This document shows, one piece after another, positions 7,559 to 48,199 of a stretch of 51,571 bases of DNA. How positions within the stretch are numbered: position 1 is the stretch's first letter; the number at the start of each line of letters is the position of its first letter. A program made the translations under genes and the position numbers. Source of the stretch: Armatimonadota bacterium (GTDB lineage Bacteria > Cloacimonadota > Cloacimonadia > Cloacimonadales > TCS61); contig JABMPU010000136.1 of assembly GCA_013203665.1 (NCBI GenBank), positions 1-51,571 of the forward strand. Reading direction: 5' to 3'. Below the pieces are notes generated by a model that worked only from the letters and a program-made list of their open reading frames with translations, was not told the DNA's origin and did no database searches.

Positions 7559-8779
7559 TTATCCTTCTGATGATAAACCGAAAATAACAGCCATCAAACA
7601 TAAAATAAAGAGAAATCCAAAAAGTAAAAGACGGACAAAGCGATGTTTATTTTTGGGGGATTGGGATGCTACAAAGAATGCTAATAAACATTGGAATGCA
7701 TAAAAAAGCGCAAAAGCTCGAGATGCATAACAAATAATTGTGTAAACATTTGCTGCCCAGGTGATAGCAATCGCAACTAAAGCGATTAGAGGATAGGCAT
7801 ATTTGATTTTTATTCGTTTTCTACTGACTTCTCCTATGAGACCACCAGCTCCTGCAGTATCAGCAATTGCCGCACTGAACTGGCTTCCAACTGCTGAGAT
7901 AGTCAGACAAACCGGCAGGATAAGAGCAATAATTCCACTTACCTGAATAATACCGGTCACACCTGCTGTTCCCTGCAAATTGCGAAATAACTCTGTTACC
8001 AAAACTATAAAAACCAGGTAGATAATTCCGGAAATAATCTGAGCTTTTTTCATCGTCTTTATACGCAGTTCAGCAGAATATTCAGCACCGAGAAAGCGTG
8101 ATGTTTCAAATCCCTGAACAACAATGAGAAGACCGAGTAATACTCTAAATGTATTCAAATTAATATTTGGCTCGTGAGTCAATAATCTCCATTCTCCATC
8201 TAAAAAATTATTAAAATTGAAATAAAGAAGCCCGAGTAATAAACCACCGATCATGGCAAAGTTAACTCCAACAGCATATTTTTCAATGTTTTCAAAAATG
8301 CCAAGACCTCGTATCCAACCTAAAAAACCGATCAGTAAAAGAATTCCGGTTGTGATGCAATCTGCTGTGAAGTGACTGGAAATTCCCATTCCATTGAGCA
8401 AAAAAGCGGAGAGTAGATTCAAATAATAGGCAACCGAAATAAAATATGCAACTGTCAATGTTATCTGAGAAATTTCTGAAAAAGTATGAATCACACTTTG
8501 ATTATTTCTTTGAGCTAAAATCGGTTCAAGATAACGGATATTAAAGCGGATTGCACTACCCACAAAATATGCCAGAACAATCAAGGCAGCCATCACAAAA
8601 ATAGCATAATCACCCACGTTATCTGCCATCAAAGGTGCGGCAACCAGAAAGCCGCTGCCAATTATCGAAGCTAAAGGAGTAACCGTGGCTCTCCATGTTT
8701 TTGATTTTCGCAGCCGTTTTGAAAACAGGATTGAACCTGCAATCAAAACAGCGATTACTACAATTATATTTTGTATCAT
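7559..8779 (-). CDS. Polytopic membrane protein, YkvI/APC-superfamily-like transporter
   Basis: 406 aa with about 10-11 hydrophobic segments; 'TPLASIIGSGFLVAAPLMADNVGDYAI' resembles YkvI-type uncharacterised transporters. Family assignment by recall only. Confidence 0.55.
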   Translation of the reverse strand: MIQNIIVVIAVLIAGSILFSKRLRKSKTWRATVTPLASIIGSGFLVAAPLMADNVGDYAIFVMAALIVLAYFVGSAIRFNIRYLEPILAQRNNQSVIHTFSEISQITLTVAYFISVAYYLNLLSAFLLNGMGISSHFTADCITTGILLLIGFLGWIRGLGIFENIEKYAVGVNFAMIGGLLLGLLYFNFNNFLDGEWRLLTHEPNINLNTFRVLLGLLIVVQGFETSRFLGAEYSAELRIKTMKKAQIISGIIYLVFIVLVTELFRNLQGTAGVTGIIQVSGIIALILPVCLTISAVGSQFSAAIADTAGAGGLIGEVSRKRIKIKYAYPLIALVAIAITWAANVYTIICYASRAFALFYAFQCLLAFFVASQSPKNKHRFVRLLLFGFLFILCLMAVIFGLSSEG

Positions 8780-8950
8780 AAATTTCTTTTATTTTAGAAT
8801 CGGAAAAACTTAAACTCCCCTTTATCAGCAAGTTGATAGTTCATTTAAGATGAAATCTTCTGGAAACTTTCCGAACTTTTTTAGATTCCCACTTTCGTTG
8901 GAATGACATTTCATAAGAAGTTTCGGAAAGTTAAAATGTTTTAATAGACT

Positions 8951-23441: not shown

Positions 23442-23864
23442 TTATTTCCCAATCAGCCCTCTTATAAATTCTGTTACATGTTCTGCTGGCAAAATATCGA
23501 CCCCAGATAGACTCTTGAGCGTATAGAGCAATATTACGAAAGTAACAATCATACCGATACCAATTACAAAATAAATAATTAAACGGAAAACCATTACTAT
23601 CGCTCTATTACCTTTCTGGTCTGGAGTGATCTGGATGTTCCTTCGCTGATCGATGCCAAAAATCAAAACAAAATACCAGCGTTTAAAGAACCAAAAGGTT
23701 AATCTCACATCTAAGATTTCTTTTCCAAAAGCTGGTGGAAGAAGCCGTTTAAGAACATTGCGAATTTCAGTTTTCTGTTCCCGATTCAAAGTTTTCTTAA
23801 TCGTAGGATTGATATTACCTAAGTAGCTTTTTTCCTCAAAATCCTTAGCTTTTCTATCGTACAT
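23442..23864 (-). CDS. Small membrane protein of unknown function
   Basis: 140 aa ORF, one C-terminal TM helix; overlaps the preceding gene by 11 bp. Confidence 0.65.
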   Translation of the reverse strand: MYDRKAKDFEEKSYLGNINPTIKKTLNREQKTEIRNVLKRLLPPAFGKEILDVRLTFWFFKRWYFVLIFGIDQRRNIQITPDQKGNRAIVMVFRLIIYFVIGIGMIVTFVILLYTLKSLSGVDILPAEHVTEFIRGLIGK

Positions 23865-25212
23865 AAGAAACTCTCCTTGTTTTGCCTGTTTGTTTGGAAT
23901 ATTTCTTTTCGATTTTACTCATTGCAGCTATTAAAGCAAAAGCCATCATCAATTGATAAAAATTATTCGTTTGTTTCAATACCCATTCCAAGGAAGACTC
24001 CAGGTAAATTCCCAGAAGTCCTCCCATCAATCCAATCGTATAATAATGATAATCTGTCTTTTGAAATTTGTAGTAATTATAAAAATTTCTAAAAAAATAA
24101 TAGAAAATTAAGAGTAAAAAAACCACCAAATTATACCATCCGGTTTCAGCAGCAATCATAAGATAAATAGTTTCAACGCGAGCATGAAGAGATTCTTCTG
24201 TAGTACCTTCAATATGGTCGCTGTAGTGATAGGGAGGATTCACCTTTATTCCCCAATTATTCAAACCTACTCCGAAAGTTTTGTCGTCTGCCATTCTCAC
24301 TGCTGCCTGAGCTAATAAAATACGTAAATTTGCTGAAGCAGTTGGAGCTGTTACAAACCTGACAATAATCGAATCAGCTGCTTTAGCCAACATGGCAATA
24401 CCCGCTATCATCAATACAAAGGATATGCTAAGTTTTTTCGCTGATAAACCTCCGGCAAAGGAGAAAAACAGAACAATACTGCTTGCAACCACAAAACTTG
24501 CCTGCCCTGCTCTTGAATAGCTCGAAATAACGCTACCAATTCCTAATGCTAATATAAAAAGCCAGTAAGGTAGATTTATTTTTCTTTTTTTGTTCAAAAC
24601 ATAAGCAAAGACAATAGAGGTAAAAATCATAAGATACATCACCATTGAGTTCTGATGCGGAAAAGGACCGACGCAGTGAAAACGACCCTCAATATATTTT
24701 TGCTTCAAAACTAAAATACCGATAAAGAGAATAACTAATGAAATTGATTTCATTAAGAAATCCAGGTCTTTTAAATCTTTTATGTAGTTGTAAATAACCC
24801 AGAAGTAGAAATACATTTTTATCATTGACCAAAGTTCAAAAGCGGAATACAGGTAGTTCTGAGCGTTTACCATTGATAACAAACTGAATAAGAAATATAA
24901 AAAATAAAGTACGGACCCAGGAGGGATTAACCTGATACCGAACCTTCTTCTTCTATTAAGGACAACAAAAAAAATAACTAATGTAACTAAATCTACCATT
25001 CCAATCTCGAATCCTAAAGAAGTGCCCTTATAAGTTTCATGAGAGAGAAAATTTATATCTTCCATTTGGGCTGTGAAAAAAATCATTAAAAAAAAGACGA
25101 TTCTCTCAACAGTCGGATTTCTTACTGAAAGCACATATGCTACGGGAACTCCCAAGAATAGAGCAGCAAAGAAAACGAGGTATTTTAAATTTGAAAGATA
25201 TAGCTCTGTCAT
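23854..25212 (-). CDS. O-antigen ligase/polymerase family (Wzy/WaaL-like) membrane protein
   Basis: 452 aa polytopic; 'GRFHCVGPFPHQNSMVMYLMIFTSIVFAYVLN', 'SYSRAGQASFVVASSIVLFFSFAGG', 'TFGVGLNNWGIKV'. Confidence 0.87.
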   Translation of the reverse strand: MTELYLSNLKYLVFFAALFLGVPVAYVLSVRNPTVERIVFFLMIFFTAQMEDINFLSHETYKGTSLGFEIGMVDLVTLVIFFVVLNRRRRFGIRLIPPGSVLYFLYFLFSLLSMVNAQNYLYSAFELWSMIKMYFYFWVIYNYIKDLKDLDFLMKSISLVILFIGILVLKQKYIEGRFHCVGPFPHQNSMVMYLMIFTSIVFAYVLNKKRKINLPYWLFILALGIGSVISSYSRAGQASFVVASSIVLFFSFAGGLSAKKLSISFVLMIAGIAMLAKAADSIIVRFVTAPTASANLRILLAQAAVRMADDKTFGVGLNNWGIKVNPPYHYSDHIEGTTEESLHARVETIYLMIAAETGWYNLVVFLLLIFYYFFRNFYNYYKFQKTDYHYYTIGLMGGLLGIYLESSLEWVLKQTNNFYQLMMAFALIAAMSKIEKKYSKQTGKTRRVSYVR

Positions 25213-25302
25213 CTTTATTTTCTTAAATATAAATTAGTTAATAAACATTATGATATCTCAAATAAAATACGTTTCAATTGTCGCAATAAATCTGCTTGAT
25301 TC

Positions 25303-26358
25303 TTAATATTTTTCGATAGTTTCTTCATAATATTCCTTCATCATCCAGGTTGTTTGCACAGCCCTTAAAGCAGGTAATATCTTATTTACTATCCTATTGA
25401 AATTTGTAAGTGGATCTAAAGGCAGGTAAACAATATCATTTGCTTTAAGTGGAAAATCCTGAATATCACCCCTGAGAATTGCTTTTGTATCTATTTTAAA
25501 AATACGAGGATGATTCAAACCTCCTCTTAATACTATCACTTGGGAAGAAGGAACCACATCTTTGTATCCACCAGCATAAATAATAACCTGCATTACTGTC
25601 ATATTTTCTTTGTAATATATTTCACCAGGTCCCGCAATGTTACCTAAAATATAGACAATCTGATTTATTAATGAGGGGATGTAGATGTAATCACCATCTA
25701 AAAGAGGTATATTGTGCAGCATATTTCCTTTACGGATTAATTCATACAAATCCACTGCCAGAACTCTATTACTTCTTATCATATAAGCTGTAGTTAAATC
25801 TGCAGCTTCCACAGTGTTGCCATGAAAATATGCAGTAGCAAATCCACCGGCTTCAGCAATGGCATCAGTCAATCTCATATCAATTTTAATTTCATAATTT
25901 CCCGGATTAGCAATTTTTCCCATAATAGTAATATTAGCACTTTTCAGCTCTCTTGGTATCATAGATACTTTTGGATTATAAATGTATTTTGAATATTTTT
26001 TTTCAATTAGTGCAGTGGCTTCGGGAAGTGTAAGTCCGGAAATTTTTACTTCACCAACGAGTTTTAAAGAGATCGTCCCATCCGGTTTCACTAATGAATT
26101 TGCAGTTAAGTAATCCGGTTCTTCTTCTACATAAACATCAAATCTGTTTCCTGAACCAATTTTATATTCTTCAAACTCAACTCGCTGGAGCTCCATTAAT
26201 TCTGCCACAACATCCGTTTCCTTTTGAAGAGCAACATGAATCTCTTCCATATATTGCTTTGTTGCTTCAACTTTGCTTTCCTCTATCACTTTATTTCTTG
26301 AGCATTGCATCAAACTAATTCCCAAAAAAATAATAATCAGGATTTTTTTCATTTTCAC
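25303..26358 (-). CDS. Polysaccharide export outer-membrane protein, Wza-like (SLBB domains)
   Basis: 351 aa lipoprotein (LMQCS); 'YKIGSGNRFDVYVEEEPDYLTANSLVKPDGTISLKLVGEVKISGLTLPEATALIEKKYSKYI', SLBB repeats 'ITIMGKIANPGNYEIK', 'VYILGNIAGPGEIYYKENMTVMQVIIYAGGYKD'. Confidence 0.92.
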   Translation of the reverse strand: MKMKKILIIIFLGISLMQCSRNKVIEESKVEATKQYMEEIHVALQKETDVVAELMELQRVEFEEYKIGSGNRFDVYVEEEPDYLTANSLVKPDGTISLKLVGEVKISGLTLPEATALIEKKYSKYIYNPKVSMIPRELKSANITIMGKIANPGNYEIKIDMRLTDAIAEAGGFATAYFHGNTVEAADLTTAYMIRSNRVLAVDLYELIRKGNMLHNIPLLDGDYIYIPSLINQIVYILGNIAGPGEIYYKENMTVMQVIIYAGGYKDVVPSSQVIVLRGGLNHPRIFKIDTKAILRGDIQDFPLKANDIVYLPLDPLTNFNRIVNKILPALRAVQTTWMMKEYYEETIEKY

Positions 26359-26362
26359 AACC

Positions 26363-28378
26363 TTAGAATTGAACCTTTAAAAAGGCTGTTTTTACATCAT
26401 TTAAAATTCCACCAATCTTTATGTCATTATTTGATCTTATAAATTTTATTGCGTTTTCTAAACTATCCCTGCTGGAACTTTGGAATCGAGCCACAAATGT
26501 CAGTAGATCTGCATAAGAAGAAATGGTCGAAAAAATCTGTAAGTTATAATGAACTTCAAATAATTCCCAGATAATTACATTATAAGAAGATAACTGGAGA
26601 AGCAATCTTTTGATATCACTTTTATCCAATGCTTTTCGGAAGACTTCTTCATCACACAAAAAATAGCACTTATGTAAATTTTCAGTAATAATATTAACAT
26701 TTCTTGCAGTTAAAGATTTCGTTTCATACAGCAGGTCATTAACCAGATAATCTTCGATTTCTTCTTCAGCTTCCAGAATGGATTCGATCCAGAGAACTTT
26801 TTCCCCGCGAGAAGTAAATAACTCAATCATCTCCTTGATAAGAAAGCTTTTTCCGGTTTCCGGTTTATCGCTGCCGAACATTATGATTTTTGGACTTTTG
26901 TTTGGAATCTGATGGGATATCTGGCCAAATAAAATTTGAATCTGAGAATTAAAATAAAGTTCGGAAACAGCATCTTTATTCGGAATCTCACCCAAATATT
27001 TTATCTTAAGAACTTCTGTAAAATCATAATCTGATTTCATGGAATAATCCAATAATTCTCTTAAAATGAAAAATATAAGTAATCCTAAGAATGTGAAAGA
27101 GCCGGTAGTCATTGCAATCACTCTTCTATTTGCTCCCCCAGGAAATTTGGGAGGTAAAGCCCATTCAAGAATATCAAAGTCGCTTACATTCGATTCGATG
27201 GCAACTTTGATATCCATTATCCTTGTTTCTGTTAATTCGAGACGATTTCTTAGAAGTTCTTCCTTCCTTTGAAGCTGAAAGTAATCTTTATCCATTGCTG
27301 AAAGAGATTCCAGACTTTCGTTTATTTTTGCGATTTGCTGCTGATATTCCACCATTTTCTTGGCAGAAGCAGACAATTCATATTCACAATCTATCCGTAA
27401 TATTATCAATTGTTTCCTGTAAGGATCTTCACCGTAAGTAATGTGATCCGGAACAAATTTATCTTCTTCTTTTACTTTTGCCAGCTCTTCTTCTAAAAAT
27501 TCGATTTCCCTCATTAGTTTTAGCACTTTTGGATTTTCATCTGTATATTGTTCTTTTAAGAGTTTTAATTCGTCCATTTTTGTTTTTATCAAACCCTCTT
27601 TTGTGTTAGAAATACTCCATGAAATGGGTATGATATCATCCGATAACTCCTCCAACTGGGAATCGATATCTCCAATTTTCGATTTCAAAGAAGTCATAAT
27701 AGATTCTGTATCCAGAACTTTTGCCTCAATAGCTCTTAATAAACCATTTTTGCGTGAAGTTTCTTCATCAATGGAAATCACATTATAATTTTTTAAAAAA
27801 TCTGCAATCTGATCTTGACTTTGTCTGTGTTCTTCCAAAAGAATATCTCTTTGATTAAGATAATAATCATAGATTTCTATTGTTGCGGAGTTCAGGATTT
27901 CATTATAATTTTTTATAAAAATGACAGCAGTAGCAATTGCAATATCTACAGCTAACTGCCTGTCATAATTAATTGAAGCAATATTTAGTATATTGGTCCT
28001 TGTCCCTCTTTGAACTTGAAGAGTTCCAAAAACTTCTTCAGGAGTCATATTTAATTTAAGGCTATCTATCACTGCTTCGAGGTTTACCCGCATTGTTACA
28101 GAATTTAAAACTGTACTTAAATTTAAATCCTGATAAAGGTATGGGACCTCAGATCTTGTAGTTATATTTTTCTCAAAACGAATTAATGTACAAGAAGCTC
28201 TAAACTTTCCTTTCAGCGATACTCTAGCCCAAACAGCTACTACTAAAGTTACTATAAATGAGATAACAAAAACCAAGGTAATTTTTCTTCTGATAGTTAA
28301 GAACAGAACTCTTCTATCGAATTTTAAAAATTCTGCACCTAAACCTGGTTCTTCGACTATAAATTGCTCATTTTCCAT
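26363..28378 (-). CDS. Wzz/Wzc (GumC-like) chain-length regulator with degenerate BY-kinase domain
   Basis: 671 aa; N-terminal Wzz domain, coiled coils, second TM, then P-loop 'MFGSDKPETGKSFLIKEM' with altered A' and B motifs. Confidence 0.87.
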   Translation of the reverse strand: MENEQFIVEEPGLGAEFLKFDRRVLFLTIRRKITLVFVISFIVTLVVAVWARVSLKGKFRASCTLIRFEKNITTRSEVPYLYQDLNLSTVLNSVTMRVNLEAVIDSLKLNMTPEEVFGTLQVQRGTRTNILNIASINYDRQLAVDIAIATAVIFIKNYNEILNSATIEIYDYYLNQRDILLEEHRQSQDQIADFLKNYNVISIDEETSRKNGLLRAIEAKVLDTESIMTSLKSKIGDIDSQLEELSDDIIPISWSISNTKEGLIKTKMDELKLLKEQYTDENPKVLKLMREIEFLEEELAKVKEEDKFVPDHITYGEDPYRKQLIILRIDCEYELSASAKKMVEYQQQIAKINESLESLSAMDKDYFQLQRKEELLRNRLELTETRIMDIKVAIESNVSDFDILEWALPPKFPGGANRRVIAMTTGSFTFLGLLIFFILRELLDYSMKSDYDFTEVLKIKYLGEIPNKDAVSELYFNSQIQILFGQISHQIPNKSPKIIMFGSDKPETGKSFLIKEMIELFTSRGEKVLWIESILEAEEEIEDYLVNDLLYETKSLTARNVNIITENLHKCYFLCDEEVFRKALDKSDIKRLLLQLSSYNVIIWELFEVHYNLQIFSTISSYADLLTFVARFQSSSRDSLENAIKFIRSNNDIKIGGILNDVKTAFLKVQF

Positions 28379-29516
28379 AAGTCAGCTCGTTCTCCATTGT
28401 TTTACGAATATCAGTAATTGAATTGATATTTGTCGGAATTTTCTTATTGCTGCCAATAAAAGCAAATGAATTTTCATCTTTTGGATGATAACCATGCATT
28501 CCGGACAACGCTTTCAATCCCATAAAACTTGGTACGATTAAAATTCCCGGTTTCATTAGAAAGAATAAATCACCAAACTTATGATCGGAAAAATATACAT
28601 GCATCTTTTTCAGTTCTTCATCAGGAATAATATAACCTTGTTCGATTTTTTTTAGTTCCTTTTCAATTATTTCTCGTGCTCCTTCTTTTAAGAACCAGAA
28701 GCGAGCCATCGTAGAATCATACATTGCCACATAATCTTTGCCAAATTTTAGATTAGTATTTTCGATTTTGGATATAATTTCAACAGTTCCGGAAACATCT
28801 GTCATTCCATGGTCCGAAAAAACATAAAAGCTGACATCATCATAAACCTGGTTTGCAGTTTTCAAAACTTCAGATATTTCATTCTCTAATGAACGAATTT
28901 TCTCTTCAACTTTTGGGTTTCCGGTTCCAAAAGCATGCATTACTCCATCAAGTTTTGGTAAGTACAAATAAAGAAATTCGATTTTACCTTCTTCTATTTT
29001 TTGTTTAGCGATTCCCAGGTTCTTTTCTTCAGGCAATCTCCAATTAGAGCAAAAATAAGGAATGTTATTTTCAACACAATAATCAAAAATTGTATCTGTT
29101 TTCAGAATTCCGCCAGGTACAAAATAATCTCTCTTTTCCAAATAATCGAAGTATTTAATATGTTTTAAAGGCATACTGTAAATTTCAAAATATCCGGTAT
29201 AACCATAAAACTTCACTAATATCTTACTTATCCAATGTCTAACTCTTCCTCGATCAAAGATAGAACGTGGTAAAAAAGATATATACTGCAATAGTTTGAA
29301 AGGAGATGTTTCTGGAGAATAATAAAAGCTGGACCAATGGGTATGTTCGTCCGGGTATCTTCCGGTTAAGATAGATGGATCTGCAGCAGAGGAAAATCCA
29401 AATGTGGTTCGCAATTTCTTGGAATCGATAATGATGTTCTCAAGAAACCCATAATGCTGATATATTTTCCAACCAAAAGCATCAATAAATGTATACAAAG
29501 CAAGCTTTTTACTCAT
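28368..29516 (-). CDS. Alkaline phosphatase superfamily / type I phosphodiesterase protein
   Basis: 382 aa; 'AADPSILTGRYPDEHTHWSSFYYSP', 'LYLPKLDGVMHAFGTGNPKVEEKI', 'FYVFSDHGMTDVSGTVEI', 'GMHGYHPKDENSFAFIG'. Confidence 0.82.
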   Translation of the reverse strand: MSKKLALYTFIDAFGWKIYQHYGFLENIIIDSKKLRTTFGFSSAADPSILTGRYPDEHTHWSSFYYSPETSPFKLLQYISFLPRSIFDRGRVRHWISKILVKFYGYTGYFEIYSMPLKHIKYFDYLEKRDYFVPGGILKTDTIFDYCVENNIPYFCSNWRLPEEKNLGIAKQKIEEGKIEFLYLYLPKLDGVMHAFGTGNPKVEEKIRSLENEISEVLKTANQVYDDVSFYVFSDHGMTDVSGTVEIISKIENTNLKFGKDYVAMYDSTMARFWFLKEGAREIIEKELKKIEQGYIIPDEELKKMHVYFSDHKFGDLFFLMKPGILIVPSFMGLKALSGMHGYHPKDENSFAFIGSNKKIPTNINSITDIRKTMENELTYGK

Positions 29517-30574: not shown

Positions 30575-32017
30575 TTACTTTTCGATAAAACGTGATTCAT
30601 CCTCCACAATTCTGCTCCAGATTGAGAAAAAACGGTTGAAAAGAGCTTTGAAAAAAATCTTCAAATCTAATTTTAGAGAGTAATTGTTACAGTAATAAAG
30701 CTCATTAATATCAATTTCGAATTCAGAAGGTTTAGCCGAAACCATAGCAGAATAATCGAAAACGCCTGGTTGATAAGAAGGAAGTTTATTTAAGTGCATT
30801 AATGCACCGGAGGATTGAGGAAGAATACGATTTCCAACTAAAAAAATATCTTTTTTCAGAACATTTTTATAAAGAGGATATTTATTGAGAGAAAGACGAA
30901 AGAATAAAGTAGAAAGAAAATTTGGTGTTATAACTCTCCAATAATACAATTTTTTAGAATCTCCATTAAGAGTAAGATAGCACAATCGTCTGCTTTTTCG
31001 TAAATGTCCCAACCTTTGTATACCCAGGAAAAGTAGATAAGGAATTGCTCCAATAATCAAGAGAAAAAGAGCGATGGTGGAATGAACAAACCGTCGGAAA
31101 GACTTCGTCATAATATTCTTCTGGATATCGGAAACAAGAAAATCATCGACAATCTGGGTGAATTCACCAGTGAAAGGATCGATTACTTTTCTCTTATGAA
31201 TGATTTTATCTATAATCTCCAGGTCGCTTCCAATGTAACATAAATCATAAATTATGCTTTTTACAATTGTAGTAGAGAAATCAACAATCACGTTATTTCC
31301 GATAATCGTATCCGGACCAATTTTACATTCTGACTTTATCTGAACATTATCACCCAGCATTAAAGGTTTTTCAGTCTCAACGGATTTGGGATACACAACA
31401 TTTTTACCAAGAAAAACACCATTTTCATTGCTGTAGCCCGGTAGCACAAAATCACTTTGATGGTCACGGATCAAATTGATACTCAAAGCATAATACGATT
31501 GAATACTATTAACTGGAGTAAAGAAAAATCCAGGTTTATTAAATTCAGGAATTTTATCCAAATTAATATTGAATTTATTTGTTTCCTTTTTCAAAAGATA
31601 AATTGCTGAATCTTCTTTTGTGATTTTTCGATCCGAATTAATCTTTGATAAAAACGGATAGGTTTTCTTGTCTTTTTGGTAATGAAGAAAGTCATATCCA
31701 AAAATAATGAGAAGGTCTGAATCTTTACAGAAACTGGAATTCTTAAGGAAAATCTTATTCAGACTATCATCTGGTTTCACCAATCCGTAAGAAAGGGTAA
31801 TTCCCCACTGTGTACCATCACCAAAATAACTTTCTAAGTCTGTATTAGAATGGTTAATGATAACTCTGGCTTCTGAAATTCCTATTAGAGTGCAGAAATC
31901 AATATAATATTCCAGAAGTGGTTTATTCAGAATTCGGAGAAAATAAGGCTGTACATCAGAGAAGTATTCTTTTAACCATTTAGTTTGCTCCGGTAAACAA
32001 TAAATAAGGCATTTCAT
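30575..32017 (-). CDS. Fusion protein: degenerate sugar nucleotidyltransferase + left-handed beta-helix + degenerate monotopic PGT-like domain
   Basis: 480 aa; N-term 'YFLRILNKPLLEYYIDFCTLIGISEARVIIN' NTase-like; hexapeptide-like 'GDNVQIKSECKIGPDTIIGNNVIVDFSTTIVKSIIYDLCYIGSDLEI'; C-term 'YPLYKNVLKKDIFLVGNRI...PGVFDYSAM...ELYYCNNYSLKLDLKIFFKAL' aligns with the PGT at 32421-33146. Confidence 0.75.
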   Translation of the reverse strand: MKCLIYCLPEQTKWLKEYFSDVQPYFLRILNKPLLEYYIDFCTLIGISEARVIINHSNTDLESYFGDGTQWGITLSYGLVKPDDSLNKIFLKNSSFCKDSDLLIIFGYDFLHYQKDKKTYPFLSKINSDRKITKEDSAIYLLKKETNKFNINLDKIPEFNKPGFFFTPVNSIQSYYALSINLIRDHQSDFVLPGYSNENGVFLGKNVVYPKSVETEKPLMLGDNVQIKSECKIGPDTIIGNNVIVDFSTTIVKSIIYDLCYIGSDLEIIDKIIHKRKVIDPFTGEFTQIVDDFLVSDIQKNIMTKSFRRFVHSTIALFLLIIGAIPYLLFLGIQRLGHLRKSRRLCYLTLNGDSKKLYYWRVITPNFLSTLFFRLSLNKYPLYKNVLKKDIFLVGNRILPQSSGALMHLNKLPSYQPGVFDYSAMVSAKPSEFEIDINELYYCNNYSLKLDLKIFFKALFNRFFSIWSRIVEDESRFIEK

Positions 32018-32032
32018 AATACCAACCTTATA

Positions 32033-32377
32033 TTAATTTTGGATTTCTTTGATAGCGATTAATGCAGCTTCTACATCATCGAAAACCTCAAAAACTTTGT
32101 AAGCTCTGGTAATATTAAATACCATACGCGGTTTTGGTTGAAGATTTGCAATATAAACATCTCCGTTCAATTCAGAAGAGTGTTTCAATGAACTGATTAT
32201 TGCTCCCAGTCCGGTACTATCAATGAATTCCAGTTCCGAAAAATCCATTACAAAGAAAATTACTTCTTCCAAATAAGATTGAAACTTTTCTTTCAGTTCT
32301 CTTGCATTGGCTGCATCCAGACGCCCGATAATCTTGATGATTCCCGTTTTTCCATCTTTTTTGAACTCAATTGTCAT
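32033..32377 (-). CDS. STAS domain anti-sigma factor antagonist (RsbV/SpoIIAA-like)
   Basis: 114 aa; 'IKIIGRLDAANARELKEKFQSYL', 'FVMDFSELEFIDSTGLGAIISSLKHSSELNGDVYIANL' with the phospho-acceptor D-S-T-G motif. Confidence 0.92.
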   Translation of the reverse strand: MTIEFKKDGKTGIIKIIGRLDAANARELKEKFQSYLEEVIFFVMDFSELEFIDSTGLGAIISSLKHSSELNGDVYIANLQPKPRMVFNITRAYKVFEVFDDVEAALIAIKEIQN

Positions 32378-32420: not shown

Positions 32421-33146
32421 TTAATAAGCTCCTTTTCCTGTAATAACGGCAGGTATTGTCTTTAATAAAATAATTATATCTTTAAAGACACTTTGGCTGC
32501 CAATATATTGCTTGTCCAATTCTACTTGTTCTCTGAATGGGATATCGCTTCTGCCACTTATTTGCCAGATTCCGGTTATGCCGGGAATTGTGTGCAATCT
32601 TTTACGGTCTTCAAGCGTATATTCATTAACTTCTCGCGGTAGGGGTGGTCGCGGACCGACAAGACTCATATCTCCTTTCAGAACATTAATAAGCTGGGGA
32701 AGCTCATCAATGCTGAAGCGACGAAGAAAACGACCCACCTTTGTTATTCTCGGGTCTTGCTTTATCTTAAAAATCACACCATCTTTAGATTCATTTTCAT
32801 TCATAAGTTGATCTTTAAAATCTTCCGCTCCCACATACATTGAACGAAATTTATAAAAATCAAAAGATTTACCATCTTTTCCAACTCTAACCTGACTGTA
32901 GAAAAACGGGCCATAATTTTCAATTACAATCGCTAGAGCTGTAATTAAAAAAAGTGGTGAAAAAATTATCAGAAAACTCATTGAGAGAATTATATCTAAA
33001 AACCGTTTTAAAAAATAAGAAAATTTAACAATAAATTCCCATAATAAGACTTTCCGTCTGTATTTAATTTGTTTATGCTTCAGTTTCTTATCTGTGTATG
33101 TATGCATCATTTCTTTTCTTAACTCATGATCAACGGGCATAAACAC
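32421..33146 (-). CDS. Sugar transferase (polyprenyl-phosphate phosphoglycosyltransferase)
   Basis: 241 aa; 'FFYSQVRVGKDGKSFDFYKFRSM', 'SIDELPQLINVLKGDMSLVGPRPPLP', 'PGITGIWQISGRSDIPF'. Confidence 0.94.
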   Translation of the reverse strand: MFMPVDHELRKEMMHTYTDKKLKHKQIKYRRKVLLWEFIVKFSYFLKRFLDIILSMSFLIIFSPLFLITALAIVIENYGPFFYSQVRVGKDGKSFDFYKFRSMYVGAEDFKDQLMNENESKDGVIFKIKQDPRITKVGRFLRRFSIDELPQLINVLKGDMSLVGPRPPLPREVNEYTLEDRKRLHTIPGITGIWQISGRSDIPFREQVELDKQYIGSQSVFKDIIILLKTIPAVITGKGAY

Positions 33147-33411: not shown

Positions 33412-35139
33412 CTATAAAATCTCTTTATCCTCATTCCAACTTGGAAGCTCATAACAGGGTGAATATGGAATAATAAGTCTTTTCTTAACATCTAATAAGT
33501 AATAATTATGTTTAGGATATGATGCAAGTAATTCTTTATTTCGACCTAGCAAGCTGCGTGCATAAATAATCGAGCCATCCAGATTCACATTATTAAGCTG
33601 AAAACCAGCCATATACGGGTAAATGCGCTTCTCATCGGGATTACTTATCAAAACAAGAGCCGGTTTTTTTACAGATTGTGTAACAAGATTTTCAATGTTG
33701 TATAAAACTCCTCTTTGATGAAAAATTGAAAACCTTGATGGAAGAACACCTAATATCGAAATCAGCAAAGTTGTAATCCAAAAAATAAATATAAATTTTA
33801 CTATTATAACTTTTGTATTTTTACTTTTTGGAAATAAATAGTTTGGTAAAATCATCAAACCTCGTCCCGAAGTAGCAAGCATCAAAGGAAAAAGTTCAAA
33901 ATAAAAACGAGGACCGTAGCTTAATCCATGATTTCTATACAATCCATATCCTATTATGTAAAATACTGTCAATAAACATATTGCTTTTGACCTATTTTCG
34001 CGTGAAAACAGGTAAACAGAAAAAGGGAGCAATGAAAGTAACGGGATACCAAGTAAATCTACTGAAAGACCAGTTAGATTGATCAAGGTGTTTTTTATAG
34101 TATGAACACCCAAGCCGATTGTTTCGTTTGGTAGAGCAATTTGATGTGGAGTAACAAATGGATTTCCGGTTAAACAGAAATTATAGCCTAAAAATAATGT
34201 TATAAACGGTAATATTCCTATTACCACTAATGATAAAAAGCTATAAATTTTTATTTTCAGATGGTTATGCTTTGCCCGTAAAATCCAATAGAAACATGTA
34301 AATATTACTAAAATCAGAGCTGAAAAAGGACGGCAGAGCAGCACCATACCACAACATAATCCTATGCCCAAAGGTTTCCATCTATCGGATAAATTACAAT
34401 TCAATATCCAGACCACTGCAATTGTAAAAAAAATCGCTGTTAAGATATGAGAAAAATAGCTCGCTCCTTGAAAAAGAACAAAGGGTGACAAAATCATGAA
34501 TGCACCTGAAATCAGGCCTACAGATTTACTGAAAAGTCTGGAACCTGCCCATACTGTAACAATGAGTAATATGGCTGTCAAGATAGGATTAATAGCATAA
34601 CTTATCCCTAAGAGCACTCCAGGAGTTAGAATCAGGCTGTGACCGGGGAAAAAGGAGCCAAACCATTTTTCACTCGTTAGCACAATGAGTCTCAAATTGA
34701 AAAAATCTCCGGATACAACCGGAGGATTAACCCACAATTTGCCCGCAGCAAACAGCTTAGCTTGGAAGAGATAATTAGCTTCATCCCATATATGAGCTCG
34801 CGTTTTAAAAACAAGAATACAAATAAGAATACATTCAACAAAAATAATAAAAGAAAGAATAGTTGTTATCCCAATCGGTTTATTCTTCATCCTTCTTATT
34901 TTAATGATAACAGAATCAAAGAGACGAGATAAAGATTTGTTATATTTAGTTCGGATTAATACAGATCCGATCAGAATAGTTGCAGGTAAAAGGATCAGAA
35001 TATCACGGAAATATATTATACCTTTGTAGTCAGCAGGTCTTAGTGGAAGCAAGTATTCCCAAATCGAACGACCAATTAGCAGTAAAAAACCAAGAATTAA
35101 CAAAAGTAATTGGTTGAGTGTGAATTTGTGTGTATTCAT
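33412..35139 (-). CDS. GT-C type (GT39/ArnT-like) membrane glycosyltransferase
   Basis: 575 aa polytopic; 'AHIWDEANYLFQAKLFAAGKLWVNPPVV' first periplasmic loop with acidic D-E, 'GSFFPGHSLILTPGVLLGI', 'GPRFYFELFPLMLATSGRGL'. Confidence 0.75.
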   Translation of the reverse strand: MNTHKFTLNQLLLLILGFLLLIGRSIWEYLLPLRPADYKGIIYFRDILILLPATILIGSVLIRTKYNKSLSRLFDSVIIKIRRMKNKPIGITTILSFIIFVECILICILVFKTRAHIWDEANYLFQAKLFAAGKLWVNPPVVSGDFFNLRLIVLTSEKWFGSFFPGHSLILTPGVLLGISYAINPILTAILLIVTVWAGSRLFSKSVGLISGAFMILSPFVLFQGASYFSHILTAIFFTIAVVWILNCNLSDRWKPLGIGLCCGMVLLCRPFSALILVIFTCFYWILRAKHNHLKIKIYSFLSLVVIGILPFITLFLGYNFCLTGNPFVTPHQIALPNETIGLGVHTIKNTLINLTGLSVDLLGIPLLSLLPFSVYLFSRENRSKAICLLTVFYIIGYGLYRNHGLSYGPRFYFELFPLMLATSGRGLMILPNYLFPKSKNTKVIIVKFIFIFWITTLLISILGVLPSRFSIFHQRGVLYNIENLVTQSVKKPALVLISNPDEKRIYPYMAGFQLNNVNLDGSIIYARSLLGRNKELLASYPKHNYYLLDVKKRLIIPYSPCYELPSWNEDKEIL

Positions 35140-43667: not shown

Positions 43668-45686
43668 TTATTGTTTCCTATAAGGGATTTTTATTACAGT
43701 CTCGTTGATCTCACCAAATCTCTGTTTTGTAACTTCCGATGCAATTGTGTAAATAACGAATAATCCTCTTCCCGATTCATCCAACAGTTTTTCATCAGGA
43801 AAGTATTTGCCGTCTTCTCGAACCGGTGGTAAAGACCAGTCTTTACCTTTATCCCAGATTGTTAATTCCAGTTCATTATCCTCTGCTAACCGAATCATTA
43901 TCATACTATCGGATTTGCTCATCAAACCGTGCCGTATTATGTTGTTCAAAAATTCATCTACAATCAATTCAATATGCGAAGCGAATTTCCTGTCATGAAA
44001 TTTTTCATAAATAAATTGCTCGCAATTGATGGCAACTTCACCGGCTTTTTCAAGAAGTGCTTTCAGCACAAAAGACCTTTTTATCTCATCCTTTTTTTCC
44101 TGAGGAATTTTCCTGATGGTCATCAATGTGAAGTCATCAGAACTGATATCATAATCCAGATCGATCAGTTTCTTTTTGATTTTTTGAGGAAGAATTATCG
44201 AATTAAAATTATGAATATTATTGGATATGAATTTCGCAAAACCATCGATTCCAAGTTGTTCGCCGGATTTATTATAACACTCAAAAATACCATCTGTGTA
44301 TAAAAAAATTACCATATTTTCATTGATATTAAAAACATCTCCTTCTTCAGGAGGAAACGCATAATCTTCGTGCCAGCCGATTGGAATCGAACCCTTTTCA
44401 GAAAGAATTTTTGCTTTTCCATTTTGAATATCATATAAAATAATGGGAGGGTGTCCTGCATTGTAATAAGTAATTGTGTTTTTTTTCAGGTCAACCAGGC
44501 AGAGAATGATAGTCAGAAAATTTATATCAAAAAGTCTTTTACTGAGAATGTCATTTAATCTATTTAAGATAAGAGATAATTCAAGTTTTTCTTTGGCAGC
44601 TTCGATAATCATTGAAATAGTTGATTTCACAGCAGTCATCAAAATAGCAGCTTGCACGCCATGACCGGAAATATCTGCCACATAGGCAACATACCTGGAA
44701 TCGGAAATTTGAATAATATCCAGCAGGTCTCCTCCCAATTTTCTGGAAGGTGCATAGGTAGATGTGAAAATAACTTCATCGCCTTTAACCATCCAATTTG
44801 GAAGCATATAAGATTGAACCGATGATGCAACTTCAATTTCCTGTTCTAATTCTTCATGTTGTCGTTTAATTTTTTGTTCTGCATTCTTACGAAAGGAGAT
44901 ATCCCTTAATATTCCAATTGTATGCCATTCATTTTCAATATTAACGGATGAGACAGAAAATTCCAATGGAAATTCCGAACCGTCCTTTTTCTTCGCTATC
45001 AGCTCCAGTGTTTTACCTTTTGTATGGTTTTCTTTAGTTTTACGGATTTTTTCAAATGCATCAAAAAAGTCCTGCTTATATTTGGCTGGAGCTATTTTTT
45101 CGTAAAGATTTTTTCCCAGAACATCTTTTTTGGAATAATCAAATATCTCTACTGCTGCCGAATTCCAATATGTTATTTCATTTTTTTTATTTATCATAAC
45201 AATTGCATCATAAGCAGATTCTGTGATTGCCCGAAATTTATGTTCGCTTTCCATAAGTGCCTGTTCGGCTTTTTTTCGCTCTATTTCTTCTTGTTTGATT
45301 TTCTTTTCCAATAAGATGATTTTAGCGAATTTTTCTACTTCCTGAAGTAATTTTTTCCTTCTTATCGGTTTGATGAGAAAAGCATTTACACCCTTTTCAA
45401 TGGCATTAAGAATATTTTCTGCTTCACTGTAACCGGAAATGAAGATTGTGATTACCTGGTTATCTATTTGCTTAATTTTATCAATTAATTCCAGCCCGTT
45501 CATTTTGGGCATAAAAACGTCTGCTAAAACCATATCAGGTCTGTACTTAATATATTTTTCCAATCCTTCTTCACCATCTGCTGCTATATAAACGTTCTTC
45601 ACCCTGGAAGTTAAAAATTTTGTGATTGAATCCCTGGAGATTTTTTCATCTTCCACATATAAAACAGAGATATCTAATAAATCCAT
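43668..45686 (-). CDS. Response regulator REC-PAS-PP2C (SpoIIE/RsbU-like) with C-terminal RsbW-like HATPase
   Basis: REC 'VLYVEDEK...VLADVFMPKMNGLELI...FLIKPIRRKKL'; PAS; PP2C 'KLGGDLLDIIQISDSRYVAYVADISGHGVQAAILMTAVKSTI'; HATPase 'ELIVDEFLNNIIRHG...TIWDKGKDW...GRGLFVI'. ATG 45686 with AAAGGTGG; track start 45734 lies in a repeat. Confidence 0.9.
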   Translation of the reverse strand: MDLLDISVLYVEDEKISRDSITKFLTSRVKNVYIAADGEEGLEKYIKYRPDMVLADVFMPKMNGLELIDKIKQIDNQVITIFISGYSEAENILNAIEKGVNAFLIKPIRRKKLLQEVEKFAKIILLEKKIKQEEIERKKAEQALMESEHKFRAITESAYDAIVMINKKNEITYWNSAAVEIFDYSKKDVLGKNLYEKIAPAKYKQDFFDAFEKIRKTKENHTKGKTLELIAKKKDGSEFPLEFSVSSVNIENEWHTIGILRDISFRKNAEQKIKRQHEELEQEIEVASSVQSYMLPNWMVKGDEVIFTSTYAPSRKLGGDLLDIIQISDSRYVAYVADISGHGVQAAILMTAVKSTISMIIEAAKEKLELSLILNRLNDILSKRLFDINFLTIILCLVDLKKNTITYYNAGHPPIILYDIQNGKAKILSEKGSIPIGWHEDYAFPPEEGDVFNINENMVIFLYTDGIFECYNKSGEQLGIDGFAKFISNNIHNFNSIILPQKIKKKLIDLDYDISSDDFTLMTIRKIPQEKKDEIKRSFVLKALLEKAGEVAINCEQFIYEKFHDRKFASHIELIVDEFLNNIIRHGLMSKSDSMIMIRLAEDNELELTIWDKGKDWSLPPVREDGKYFPDEKLLDESGRGLFVIYTIASEVTKQRFGEINETVIKIPYRKQ

Positions 45687-45723
45687 GATTGCCACCTTTT
45701 CTACTTTTATAAAAATCTTCTTT

Positions 45724-45792
45724 CTCGTTCCCACGCAGGTTGTTTTTATTTCTTGTTCCCACGCTACTCAGCCTGTCCTGCGTGGGAACGAG
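45724..45792. repeat. Inverted repeat, 16-bp perfect arms, with a third internal partial copy
   Basis: CTCGTTCCCACGCAGG (45724-45739) and CCTGCGTGGGAACGAG (45777-45792); internal 'TTGTTCCCACGC'. Confidence 0.85.
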
Positions 45793-45814
45793 TTCCATCC
45801 TTTAAAATTACGCA

Positions 45815-48199
45815 TTATTTCTTTTCATATTCAATTATGATTGTGGTTTCGTTTATTTCATCATAACGAGACCTATGTACTTTTGTGGCTAAAGAATATA
45901 TTAAGAAAACACCGGTTAATTCTTCTCCAAAAACATTTTCTTCAGTTTTTTTCTTATCTGGAATTACCCAGTTTATACCTTTATCCCACAAAGTCAATTT
46001 AACAACTTTGTCAATTTCGATTTGGAACAAAATGGTTGCATCGGGTTGATCTTTGAGTGAATGAAGAATGATATTATTCAAGAGTTCATTGATGATTAAT
46101 TCGATTTTGGCAGCGAATTGTATATCATCAAAACACTCTAAAATCATTTTTTCACATTGAGCACGAATCCTTTTTGTATTAACCAGAACCGAACCGATCA
46201 AAAAGAGTTTTTTCGATGTCTTTTCAGGTTCTAATAGATTTTTCTTTAAGGCAATTAAGGTGAAATCGTCCAAACTGATATCATACCCTTTTTCAACTAA
46301 TTTGGTTTTAATCTTATACGGAATAACAGCCAGATTATCATCAGAAATATTTTTTCCAAGAAGTTCTACAAAACCCTCCAAGCCAAGCTGTTCGCCTTTT
46401 TTATCTTCGCATTCAAATATGCCGTCAGTATATAAAAATGTAATTTTATTTTCTTCGGCAGAAAGTATATCTTCCTCATTTTTCATGTAAATTATTTCTG
46501 GATTCCAACCCATCGGGATCGAGCCGATTTCAGATGCCAAAGTCGCTTTATTATCTTTCTTGTCATATTGAATAACCGGAGGATGTCCTGCATTGAAATA
46601 ACGAATTGTATTGTCCTCCAAATCTACTAAAGCCAGCAGTAAAGTCATATAATTGCGATACAGAAGTTTCTCGCTCAAAATAGAATTTAGTCTATTCATA
46701 ACTCGGTAAGGTTGGATATCATTCTTTTCACTATCGATTATCATATTTATCGTAGATTTTATAGCAGTCATCAATAAGGCAGCTTCCACACCATGACCGG
46801 AAATATCGCCAATATAAACTACATATTGAGTATCCGAGATTTTAATAACATCAAAAAGGTCACCGCCGATTTTAGTGGAAGGTGTATAATTGGATGAGAC
46901 AATTAGATTATCTTCCAGCATCAACCATTTTGGCAGCATCAAAGACTGGGCAGATGAAGCAATATCGAGTTCAGCCATGATAGAACTGTATAATCTTTTT
47001 ATTTTTTCATCAGCTCTTTTTCGTTCAGTGATATCTTTATAAAAAGCGAATCTACCAATGATATCACCTGCTTCATCATAATAAAAAGCTGAACTGGTAA
47101 CGCTTACGTATATTTCTTCCATTTTTTTATTCAGCAATTTTATATCAAAATGATCGTTGATTTTTGTAAGATCACGATGGATTTCATTTTGTACAACACC
47201 TTCAGCATCGAGGGTGGCAAAATCAAAAATTGTTTTACCGAGAATCTCATCTCGAGGATATCCAAGGATATTGCAAAGAGAACTATTGATTTCGATAAAG
47301 CCTTTTTCCGGCAATGTGATGCCAAAACCTTGAGTCGTTAAATTTATGACCTCTCTGTATTTTTCTTCGCTTTTACGAAGTTTGCTTTCCATAATCTTAG
47401 ATTCGGTTCTATCACGAATGATGCTGACAATATTCCATTCACCTTGAATGACAACTGAAGAAAGAGAAAACTCGATGGGAAATTCCGCACCGTTTTTTTT
47501 CAAACCTGTAAAATCCAATGTTCTGCCAGCAGTAGCATCCTCTTCACCTTTTTCCAGAAAATGTTTAAGATTCCTATCAAAAATAGTTCTCGAAGGGGAA
47601 GAAATTATTGTATTACCCAGATTTTTTCCGATAACTTCATCACTTCGATATTCAAAGATGGTTTCTGCAGCTTTATTCCAATAAATGATATTTTCTGCTT
47701 TATTCATCATAATGATGGCATCGTTAGCAGAAGTGCTGATCGCACGAAATCTTTCTTCACTATCGGTAAGCGCCTCTTCTGTTTTCTTTCTTTCCAATTC
47801 TTCAGCTTTAAGTTTTTTACTCAAAGTTTTTGTTTCGCCATATTTACGGATTAAAGCACTCAGTTTTTTTCTTCTTACAGGTTTTAATATGAAACTATCA
47901 ACTCCCAGATCGATAGCTCTCATGAAAAATTCCGATTCGCTGTGAGCAGAAGTGATGACAATATTAACATGTTTATCGATTTCCTTGATTTTTTCAATCA
48001 TCTCAAGTCCGCCCATAATGGGCATTTTGATATCAGTAACCACCAGGTCCGGTTTATATTTTTTATATAGTTCCAATCCTTCCATACCATCTACTGCTGA
48101 ATAGAAATCAACAACAATATTATTTATGATTGAACTTAAGGAATCCCTGATGATCTCTTCATCTTCTACATATAAAACTGATATTTCATATTTTTCCAT
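45815..48199 (-). CDS. Response regulator REC-PAS-PAS-PP2C with C-terminal degenerate RsbW-like HATPase
   Basis: 794 aa; REC 'VLYVEDEEIIRDSLSSI...VVTDIKMPIMGGLEMI', PAS x2, PP2C 'KIGGDLFDVIKISDTQYVVYIGDISGHGVEAALLMTAIKSTI', HATPase N-box 'ELIINELLNNIILHS'. Confidence 0.9.
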   Translation of the reverse strand: MEKYEISVLYVEDEEIIRDSLSSIINNIVVDFYSAVDGMEGLELYKKYKPDLVVTDIKMPIMGGLEMIEKIKEIDKHVNIVITSAHSESEFFMRAIDLGVDSFILKPVRRKKLSALIRKYGETKTLSKKLKAEELERKKTEEALTDSEERFRAISTSANDAIIMMNKAENIIYWNKAAETIFEYRSDEVIGKNLGNTIISSPSRTIFDRNLKHFLEKGEEDATAGRTLDFTGLKKNGAEFPIEFSLSSVVIQGEWNIVSIIRDRTESKIMESKLRKSEEKYREVINLTTQGFGITLPEKGFIEINSSLCNILGYPRDEILGKTIFDFATLDAEGVVQNEIHRDLTKINDHFDIKLLNKKMEEIYVSVTSSAFYYDEAGDIIGRFAFYKDITERKRADEKIKRLYSSIMAELDIASSAQSLMLPKWLMLEDNLIVSSNYTPSTKIGGDLFDVIKISDTQYVVYIGDISGHGVEAALLMTAIKSTINMIIDSEKNDIQPYRVMNRLNSILSEKLLYRNYMTLLLALVDLEDNTIRYFNAGHPPVIQYDKKDNKATLASEIGSIPMGWNPEIIYMKNEEDILSAEENKITFLYTDGIFECEDKKGEQLGLEGFVELLGKNISDDNLAVIPYKIKTKLVEKGYDISLDDFTLIALKKNLLEPEKTSKKLFLIGSVLVNTKRIRAQCEKMILECFDDIQFAAKIELIINELLNNIILHSLKDQPDATILFQIEIDKVVKLTLWDKGINWVIPDKKKTEENVFGEELTGVFLIYSLATKVHRSRYDEINETTIIIEYEKK

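Follow-up and report, generated by a model that had tools for sequence, protein, structure and literature searches.

How the first, undecaprenyl-phosphate-consuming step of polysaccharide synthesis is gated is largely unknown. The locus described here carries a conserved cassette that unites an active phosphoglycosyltransferase (PGT), a STAS protein and a catalytically dead PGT, and one lineage adds to these an entire kinase/phosphatase/receiver switch and a GT26-STAS fusion; the question is therefore directly testable. What, then, is the dead PGT for? Since bacteria of very different kinds keep it beside a working PGT and a switch protein, we read it as a probable control subunit without catalysis of its own, one that sets when the outer polysaccharide is made.

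The gene in question, called P0001 here, lies in a stretch of 51,571 nucleotides (the window; Table 1). It is a single uninterrupted frame encoding 480 aa, read from 32017 to 30575; the coordinates given in an initial annotation were correct, and the strand is minus. Judged by homology, the protein begins with a nucleotidyltransferase (NTase)-like domain, followed by a left-handed beta-helix (LbH); a hydrophobic hairpin then leads into a monotopic PGT fold at the C-terminus, which lacks the catalytic residues. The surrounding genes form a long polysaccharide cluster on the minus strand, where many glycosyltransferases are found alongside Wzc-, Wza-, polymerase- and flippase-like genes.

Table 1. 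Positions of the features discussed, in the window unless a locus is named
Feature	Position	Strand	Remark
P0001, gene of the 480-aa NTase-like/LbH/pseudo-PGT protein	30575..32017	-	open frame
NTase-like domain, residues 1-185	31463..32017	-	GxGTR loop gone, NKPLLEY retained
Left-handed beta-helix (hexapeptide), ~residues 200-282	31172..31420	-	strongest constraint of P0001 (dN/dS 0.02)
Hydrophobic re-entrant-type helix, kink Pro326	31007..31105	-	pairs with DX12P helix of the active PGT, Asp lost
Degenerate PGT catalytic fold, ~residues 340-465	30623..31000	-	
Asp-Glu dyad position in P0001	30881..30886	-	Asn378-Lys379
GPRP motif position in P0001	30824..30835	-	GNRI
STAS protein, 114 aa	32033..32377	-	PF01740 1e-19; 15 bp upstream of P0001
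Ser54 of the STAS protein (FIDSTG)	32216..32218	-	candidate phospho-switch residue
Active small PGT, 241 aa	32421..33146	-	PF02397 1e-65; diagnostic residues invariant in 18 orthologs
Intact Asp147-Glu148 dyad of the active small PGT	32703..32708	-	
Receiver + PAS + SpoIIE phosphatase + HATPase_c_2 kinase protein	43668..45734	-	candidate STAS controller (inferred)
Second receiver-PAS-SpoIIE-HATPase protein	45815..48199	-	
Wzc-like, Wza-like, O-antigen polymerase/ligase-like genes, same cluster	23854..28378	-	sequence and synteny, without Pfam scan
GT26 (WecG/TagA/CpsF) with N-terminal degenerate PGT	L035 5768-7162, L042 12047-13294, L045 12123-13379, L046 3467-4681		
The same, continued	L048 11993-13249, L049 6955-8241, L050 5224-6522, L051 7733-8971		

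The assignment of the C-terminal domain to the PGT fold rests on profile matches. Pfam Bac_transf matches residues 374-461 of P0001 with E=5e-6, and 16 of 20 family members match it individually (best 2e-9). When a profile of the last 185 aa of 20 relatives was run against 177,635 PDB sequences, the only significant matches were WbaP (5e-8) and PglC (3.5e-7). The same profile matched the neighbouring active PGTs with E=8.5e-11, while an alignment against the NTase part, serving as negative control, gave 0.22. These matches uphold the alignment with the active PGT that had been made by eye, and the profile pairs the same segments. AlphaFold had too few sequences to work with, and the mean pLDDT was 34 for full-length P0001 and one homolog and 40 for the C-terminal domain with the PGTs of the window and of L001, the locus of a 95% identical relative. 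Hydrophobicity of P0001 peaks at residues 313-333, a stretch that aligns with the active PGT's re-entrant helix. Because this helix region belongs to the degenerate domain, the domain begins at about residue 300, where it had been placed before.

The positions that we compared are catalytic or substrate-orienting; K59, R88 and R111 (PglC numbering) are substrate residues (PMC12802240), and PglC binds undecaprenyl phosphate through R88 and R145 (PMC10519829). Every one of 18 neighbouring active PGTs has the dyad Asp and Glu, the Arg at the R88 position, an unaltered GPRP motif, and both Asp and Pro of DX12P. In the P0001 family (n=20), the first dyad position is Asp in 17 members, Asn in two and Glu in one, and the second is Lys in 17, Leu in two and Ile in one. 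The initial annotation had described the dyad as N-K, which is true of P0001 but not of the family, since this pair is limited to its genus and one relative. The usual pair is D-K, and the invariant loss is therefore that of the Glu. Homologs that keep the Asp-Glu pair were looked for, and none of the 20 full-length members has the Glu. The position equivalent to R88 is never Arg (0/20), the GPRP motif has become GN.. in 19 members (Pro to Asn) with its Arg present in six, and the KFR Lys (K59) has no conserved counterpart among the 20 sequences. The loop after KFRSM is shorter in the family. In the re-entrant-type helix, the Asp of DX12P is replaced by Gln, His, Asn or Tyr, and the Pro is retained in 18 of 20.

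The N-terminal half is degenerate as well. Residues 1-185 match RmlA-type models at 3e-10, and the family profile matches a solved RmlA structure at 1.4e-8. The GxGTR loop is missing in all 20 full-length relatives and the NKP motif, including its Lys, is kept in all of them, so that what had been noted for the N-terminus of P0001 extends to the family. The metal-binding Asp position is occupied by Phe, Tyr or Leu, and in this phylum the second half of the domain is shortened by about 50 columns. An earlier suggestion, that the protein binds a UDP-sugar or polyprenyl phosphate, has become less likely as far as the canonical sites are concerned, given the shortened NTase domain, the R88 position and the unconserved Pro and Arg of PRP. 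The hexapeptide helix was found in 20/20 members; it weakly matches acyltransferase profiles, but its top matches are of the eIF2B/UGPase type, which follows NTase domains. P0001 thus has the dead NTase plus LbH architecture of pseudo-NTase regulators of the GMPPA/GlgD type. Domain searches found neither the four-helix bundle nor the DUF of WbaP-type N-termini in P0001, whose N-terminus is NTase-like plus LbH.

Of 125 genomes from the phylum, 26 carry a member of the P0001 family; these genomes belong to several families, and the members diverge to 32% identity. The reading frame is intact in all full-length copies. Compared with the 95% identical relative, P0001 has a dN/dS of 0.094; the LbH is more constrained (0.02) and the PGT-like part less so (0.14). 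It is therefore a conserved and not a decaying gene, as its occurrence in these 26 genomes, the absence of the Glu throughout and the dN/dS of 0.09 attest. The searches covered 1552 genomes in total, some of them duplicates and many of them fragmentary assemblies. A scan of genome contigs with the single P0001 sequence matched only the 95% relative, and plasmids searched for P0001 gave only short RmlA-type matches.

In this phylum, the order active PGT, STAS gene, P0001 family gene is near-invariant. Among the loci examined that have enough sequence, fragments included, the gene immediately upstream of the P0001 homolog is a STAS gene, and the phosphorylatable Ser is kept in 17/17 of these STAS neighbours that were examined. 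Next upstream, wherever the contig permits, comes a small intact PGT, except in genome G014, where there is no adjacent PGT and the neighbour is, by eye, a membrane protein of the O-acetylation type. In G005, G014 and G020, the active small PGT is on a different contig. In four genomes without the family (G007, G089, G090 and G099), the strongest STAS matches have neighbours that are not PGTs. The phylum also has STAS paralogs beside other SpoIIE genes. A promoter scan stayed at chance level. In two places the STAS frame is interrupted by an in-frame stop (TAA and TAG): L038 near 8400-8833 (G014), where the stop lies near the C-terminus, and G020:C114:12130-12348.

The same architecture occurs in other phyla. 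A search of 294 other genomes yielded locus L121, from which full-length homologs were traced in 17 genomes of a second phylum. The two families match in a profile-profile comparison with E=5e-29 over 453 columns. In the second phylum, the PGT-like fold matches active PGTs at 8e-23, and the dyad is His, Gln or Glu followed by Arg or His in 11/11. The operon there has a conserved order, namely a small PGT, GT26::STAS::STAS, the pseudo-PGT, STAS, GAF-SpoIIE, HATPase_c_2 and a receiver; at single loci some of these members are missing or were not called. The fusion of GT26 to two STAS domains is found at L152 6611-8239, L157 11468-12985 and in orthologs. In a third phylum (L173), a GT26 and a small PGT are followed by a pseudo-PGT with Arg-Arg and then by receiver-DUF4388-STAS. 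Across the three phyla, the linkage of the dead-PGT architecture with an active PGT and STAS is near-invariant.

Two further proteins, L174 and L177, have the same architecture with an intact PGT in which the DE pair is kept, and they look like the ancestral, active form. L177 is directly preceded by a STAS gene, and no STAS neighbour of L174 was present in the stretch read. A second copy was sought in the phyla of L174 and L173 and was not found among four and two genomes, respectively. In a tree of PGT domains, each dead group falls into one well-supported clade. An AU test on the origin of the dead domains (p=0.16 and 0.44), based on a quick tree with long branches, does not separate one origin from several.

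A second kind of dead PGT accompanies active ones. At eight loci of the phylum of P0001, a GT26 whose N-terminus carries a degenerate PGT domain is encoded directly upstream of the active PGT (Table 1). A profile of this domain matches that of the P0001 family at 4.7e-14 and active PGTs at 2.9e-11, the negative control giving 0.34. Because the dead fold is reused beside the active enzyme, we take these data to suggest that it is a membrane docking module.

We observe that all domains have homologs, that catalytic residues are lost, that the gene is under purifying selection and that its linkage in three phyla is near-invariant. These observations support the initial annotation in its view of P0001 as a membrane-associated partner of the active PGT in which both enzyme parts are degenerate. 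We consider it reasonably probable that P0001, catalytically dead and associated with the membrane, serves the polysaccharide priming complex as a regulatory or scaffold subunit and is controlled by STAS partner-switching. It is important to bear in mind that linkage within a polysaccharide operon can reflect a common pathway and not contact.

The following scheme would account for these features; its contacts of P0001 with the PGT and the STAS protein, its oligomerization step and its switch direction are what we infer. An ancestral fusion of NTase-like domain, LbH and active monotopic PGT would have been linked to STAS control. Once a separate small PGT was present, the PGT part may have lost catalysis, in the lineage of P0001 and in two others. 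The small PGT would then perform the priming reaction. The LbH would oligomerize P0001, and the re-entrant helix and PGT-like fold would position it on the inner membrane next to the small PGT, as a hetero-partner standing in for the second subunit that WbaP and other dimeric PGTs have. The NTase-like head, no longer catalytic, could act as a docking surface. The unphosphorylated STAS protein would bind this head or the PGT interface, turning priming on or off, and the cluster's SpoIIE-type phosphatase and HATPase kinase proteins would set its state. A more tentative proposal is that at least three phyla share a previously undescribed form of control, in which a dead PGT subunit lets a STAS partner-switch act on the priming complex directly; we regard this as a serious possibility but stop short of favoring it. 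If true, it would supply a missing type of target for those STAS proteins whose control of polysaccharides lies below transcription.

The most credible competitor of a control subunit is a metabolite sensor, in which the NTase-like head would bind a nucleotide or nucleotide-sugar and inform the PGT allosterically, with STAS as a separate layer. GMPPA, GlgD and eIF2B have a dead NTase domain followed by an LbH and play a regulatory role, and a sensor would, by analogy, parallel GMPPA for GMPPB and GlgD for GlgC. This precedent, the presence of the head throughout the family and also in the intact fusions L174 and L177, and the invariant Lys of NKP speak for such a function; the lost GxGTR loop, the replaced metal Asp and the shortened second half of the domain speak against it, and on balance we consider it unlikely. 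GMPPA, GlgD and eIF2B differ from P0001 in lacking a membrane part and a PGT domain. Somewhat less likely still is a passive tether, i.e., that the degenerate PGT domain is a mere membrane anchor or organizer of early enzymes without any switch. The GT26-fused domain upstream of the active PGT at eight loci does look like a fold reused as an anchor, but a tether leaves unexplained why STAS is the immediate neighbour in three phyla, why GT26::STAS::STAS exists and why a switch operon is present.

The other explanations have little to recommend them. The Asp kept in 17/20 might allow an Asp-Lys pair still to form the phospho-Asp intermediate, making the protein an active but altered PGT. We rejected this very improbable reading on account of the dyad, R88 and PRP losses and the intact PGT next door; moreover, P0001 itself has Asn, and the loop after KFRSM is shorter. 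It is just as improbable that P0001 is a sugar acetyltransferase acting through the hexapeptide helix, with the other domains vestigial: the LbH is the most constrained part and has weak acyltransferase matches, yet its best matches are of another type. A decaying pseudogene, which two domains without catalytic residues might bring to mind, is refuted by uninterrupted frames in all full-length copies, the low dN/dS and the occurrence across several families, and we give it almost no credence.

Comparison with known systems helps to place P0001. With small monotopic PGTs (PglC, PF02397), it has in common the hydrophobic helix with its kink Pro, the dyad-helix and LVG positions and the C-terminal helix; it differs in lacking the dyad Glu, R88, PRP and the DX12P Asp, and in being fused behind an NTase-like domain and an LbH. 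Large monotopic PGTs (WbaP, EpsZ) resemble it in joining the PGT fold to an extra N-terminal module, but this module is not a four-helix bundle or WbaP-type DUF in P0001, and the PGT part of P0001 lacks the catalytic residues. WbaP is a homodimer, and its extra domain has been assigned a regulatory role (PMC10942596). In Myxococcus xanthus, the receiver EpsW promotes dimer formation of the PGT EpsZ and thereby activates it; EpsW was described as a PGT regulator only in 2025 (PMC12802240). There, as we propose for P0001, a partner from the same locus controls the initiating PGT post-translationally, but that partner is a single-domain receiver and not a pseudo-PGT with a STAS protein. In Vibrio fischeri, the STAS protein SypA controls polysaccharide-dependent biofilm below transcription, and this STAS protein in a polysaccharide locus is set by a kinase-receiver-phosphatase protein, SypE (PMC10120452). 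The proteins at 43668-48199 of the window have the same three kinds of domain as SypE, in a different order; unlike here, no pseudo-PGT is described in that system. In the open-access literature, pseudoenzyme with PGT, and priming glycosyltransferase with anti-sigma factor antagonist, gave no match, although such absence is a weak statement.

Several further genes were noted. A large membrane protein gene without Pfam match (33412-35139) has an internal deletion in the 95% relative (L001 1328-1991). A 140-aa protein, also without Pfam match (23442-23864), is conserved and adjoins the polymerase-like gene in most related clusters. At 28368-29516, the polysaccharide cluster contains a gene resembling Type I phosphodiesterase/nucleotide pyrophosphatase, and the third-phylum copy also adjoins such a gene (L173 11523-12698, 48% identical). 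Finally, proteins of about 510-550 aa (L112 1347-2963, L113 to L119) have DELPQ intact and a PGT match that begins past the re-entrant helix; they occur in genomes with and without the P0001 family.
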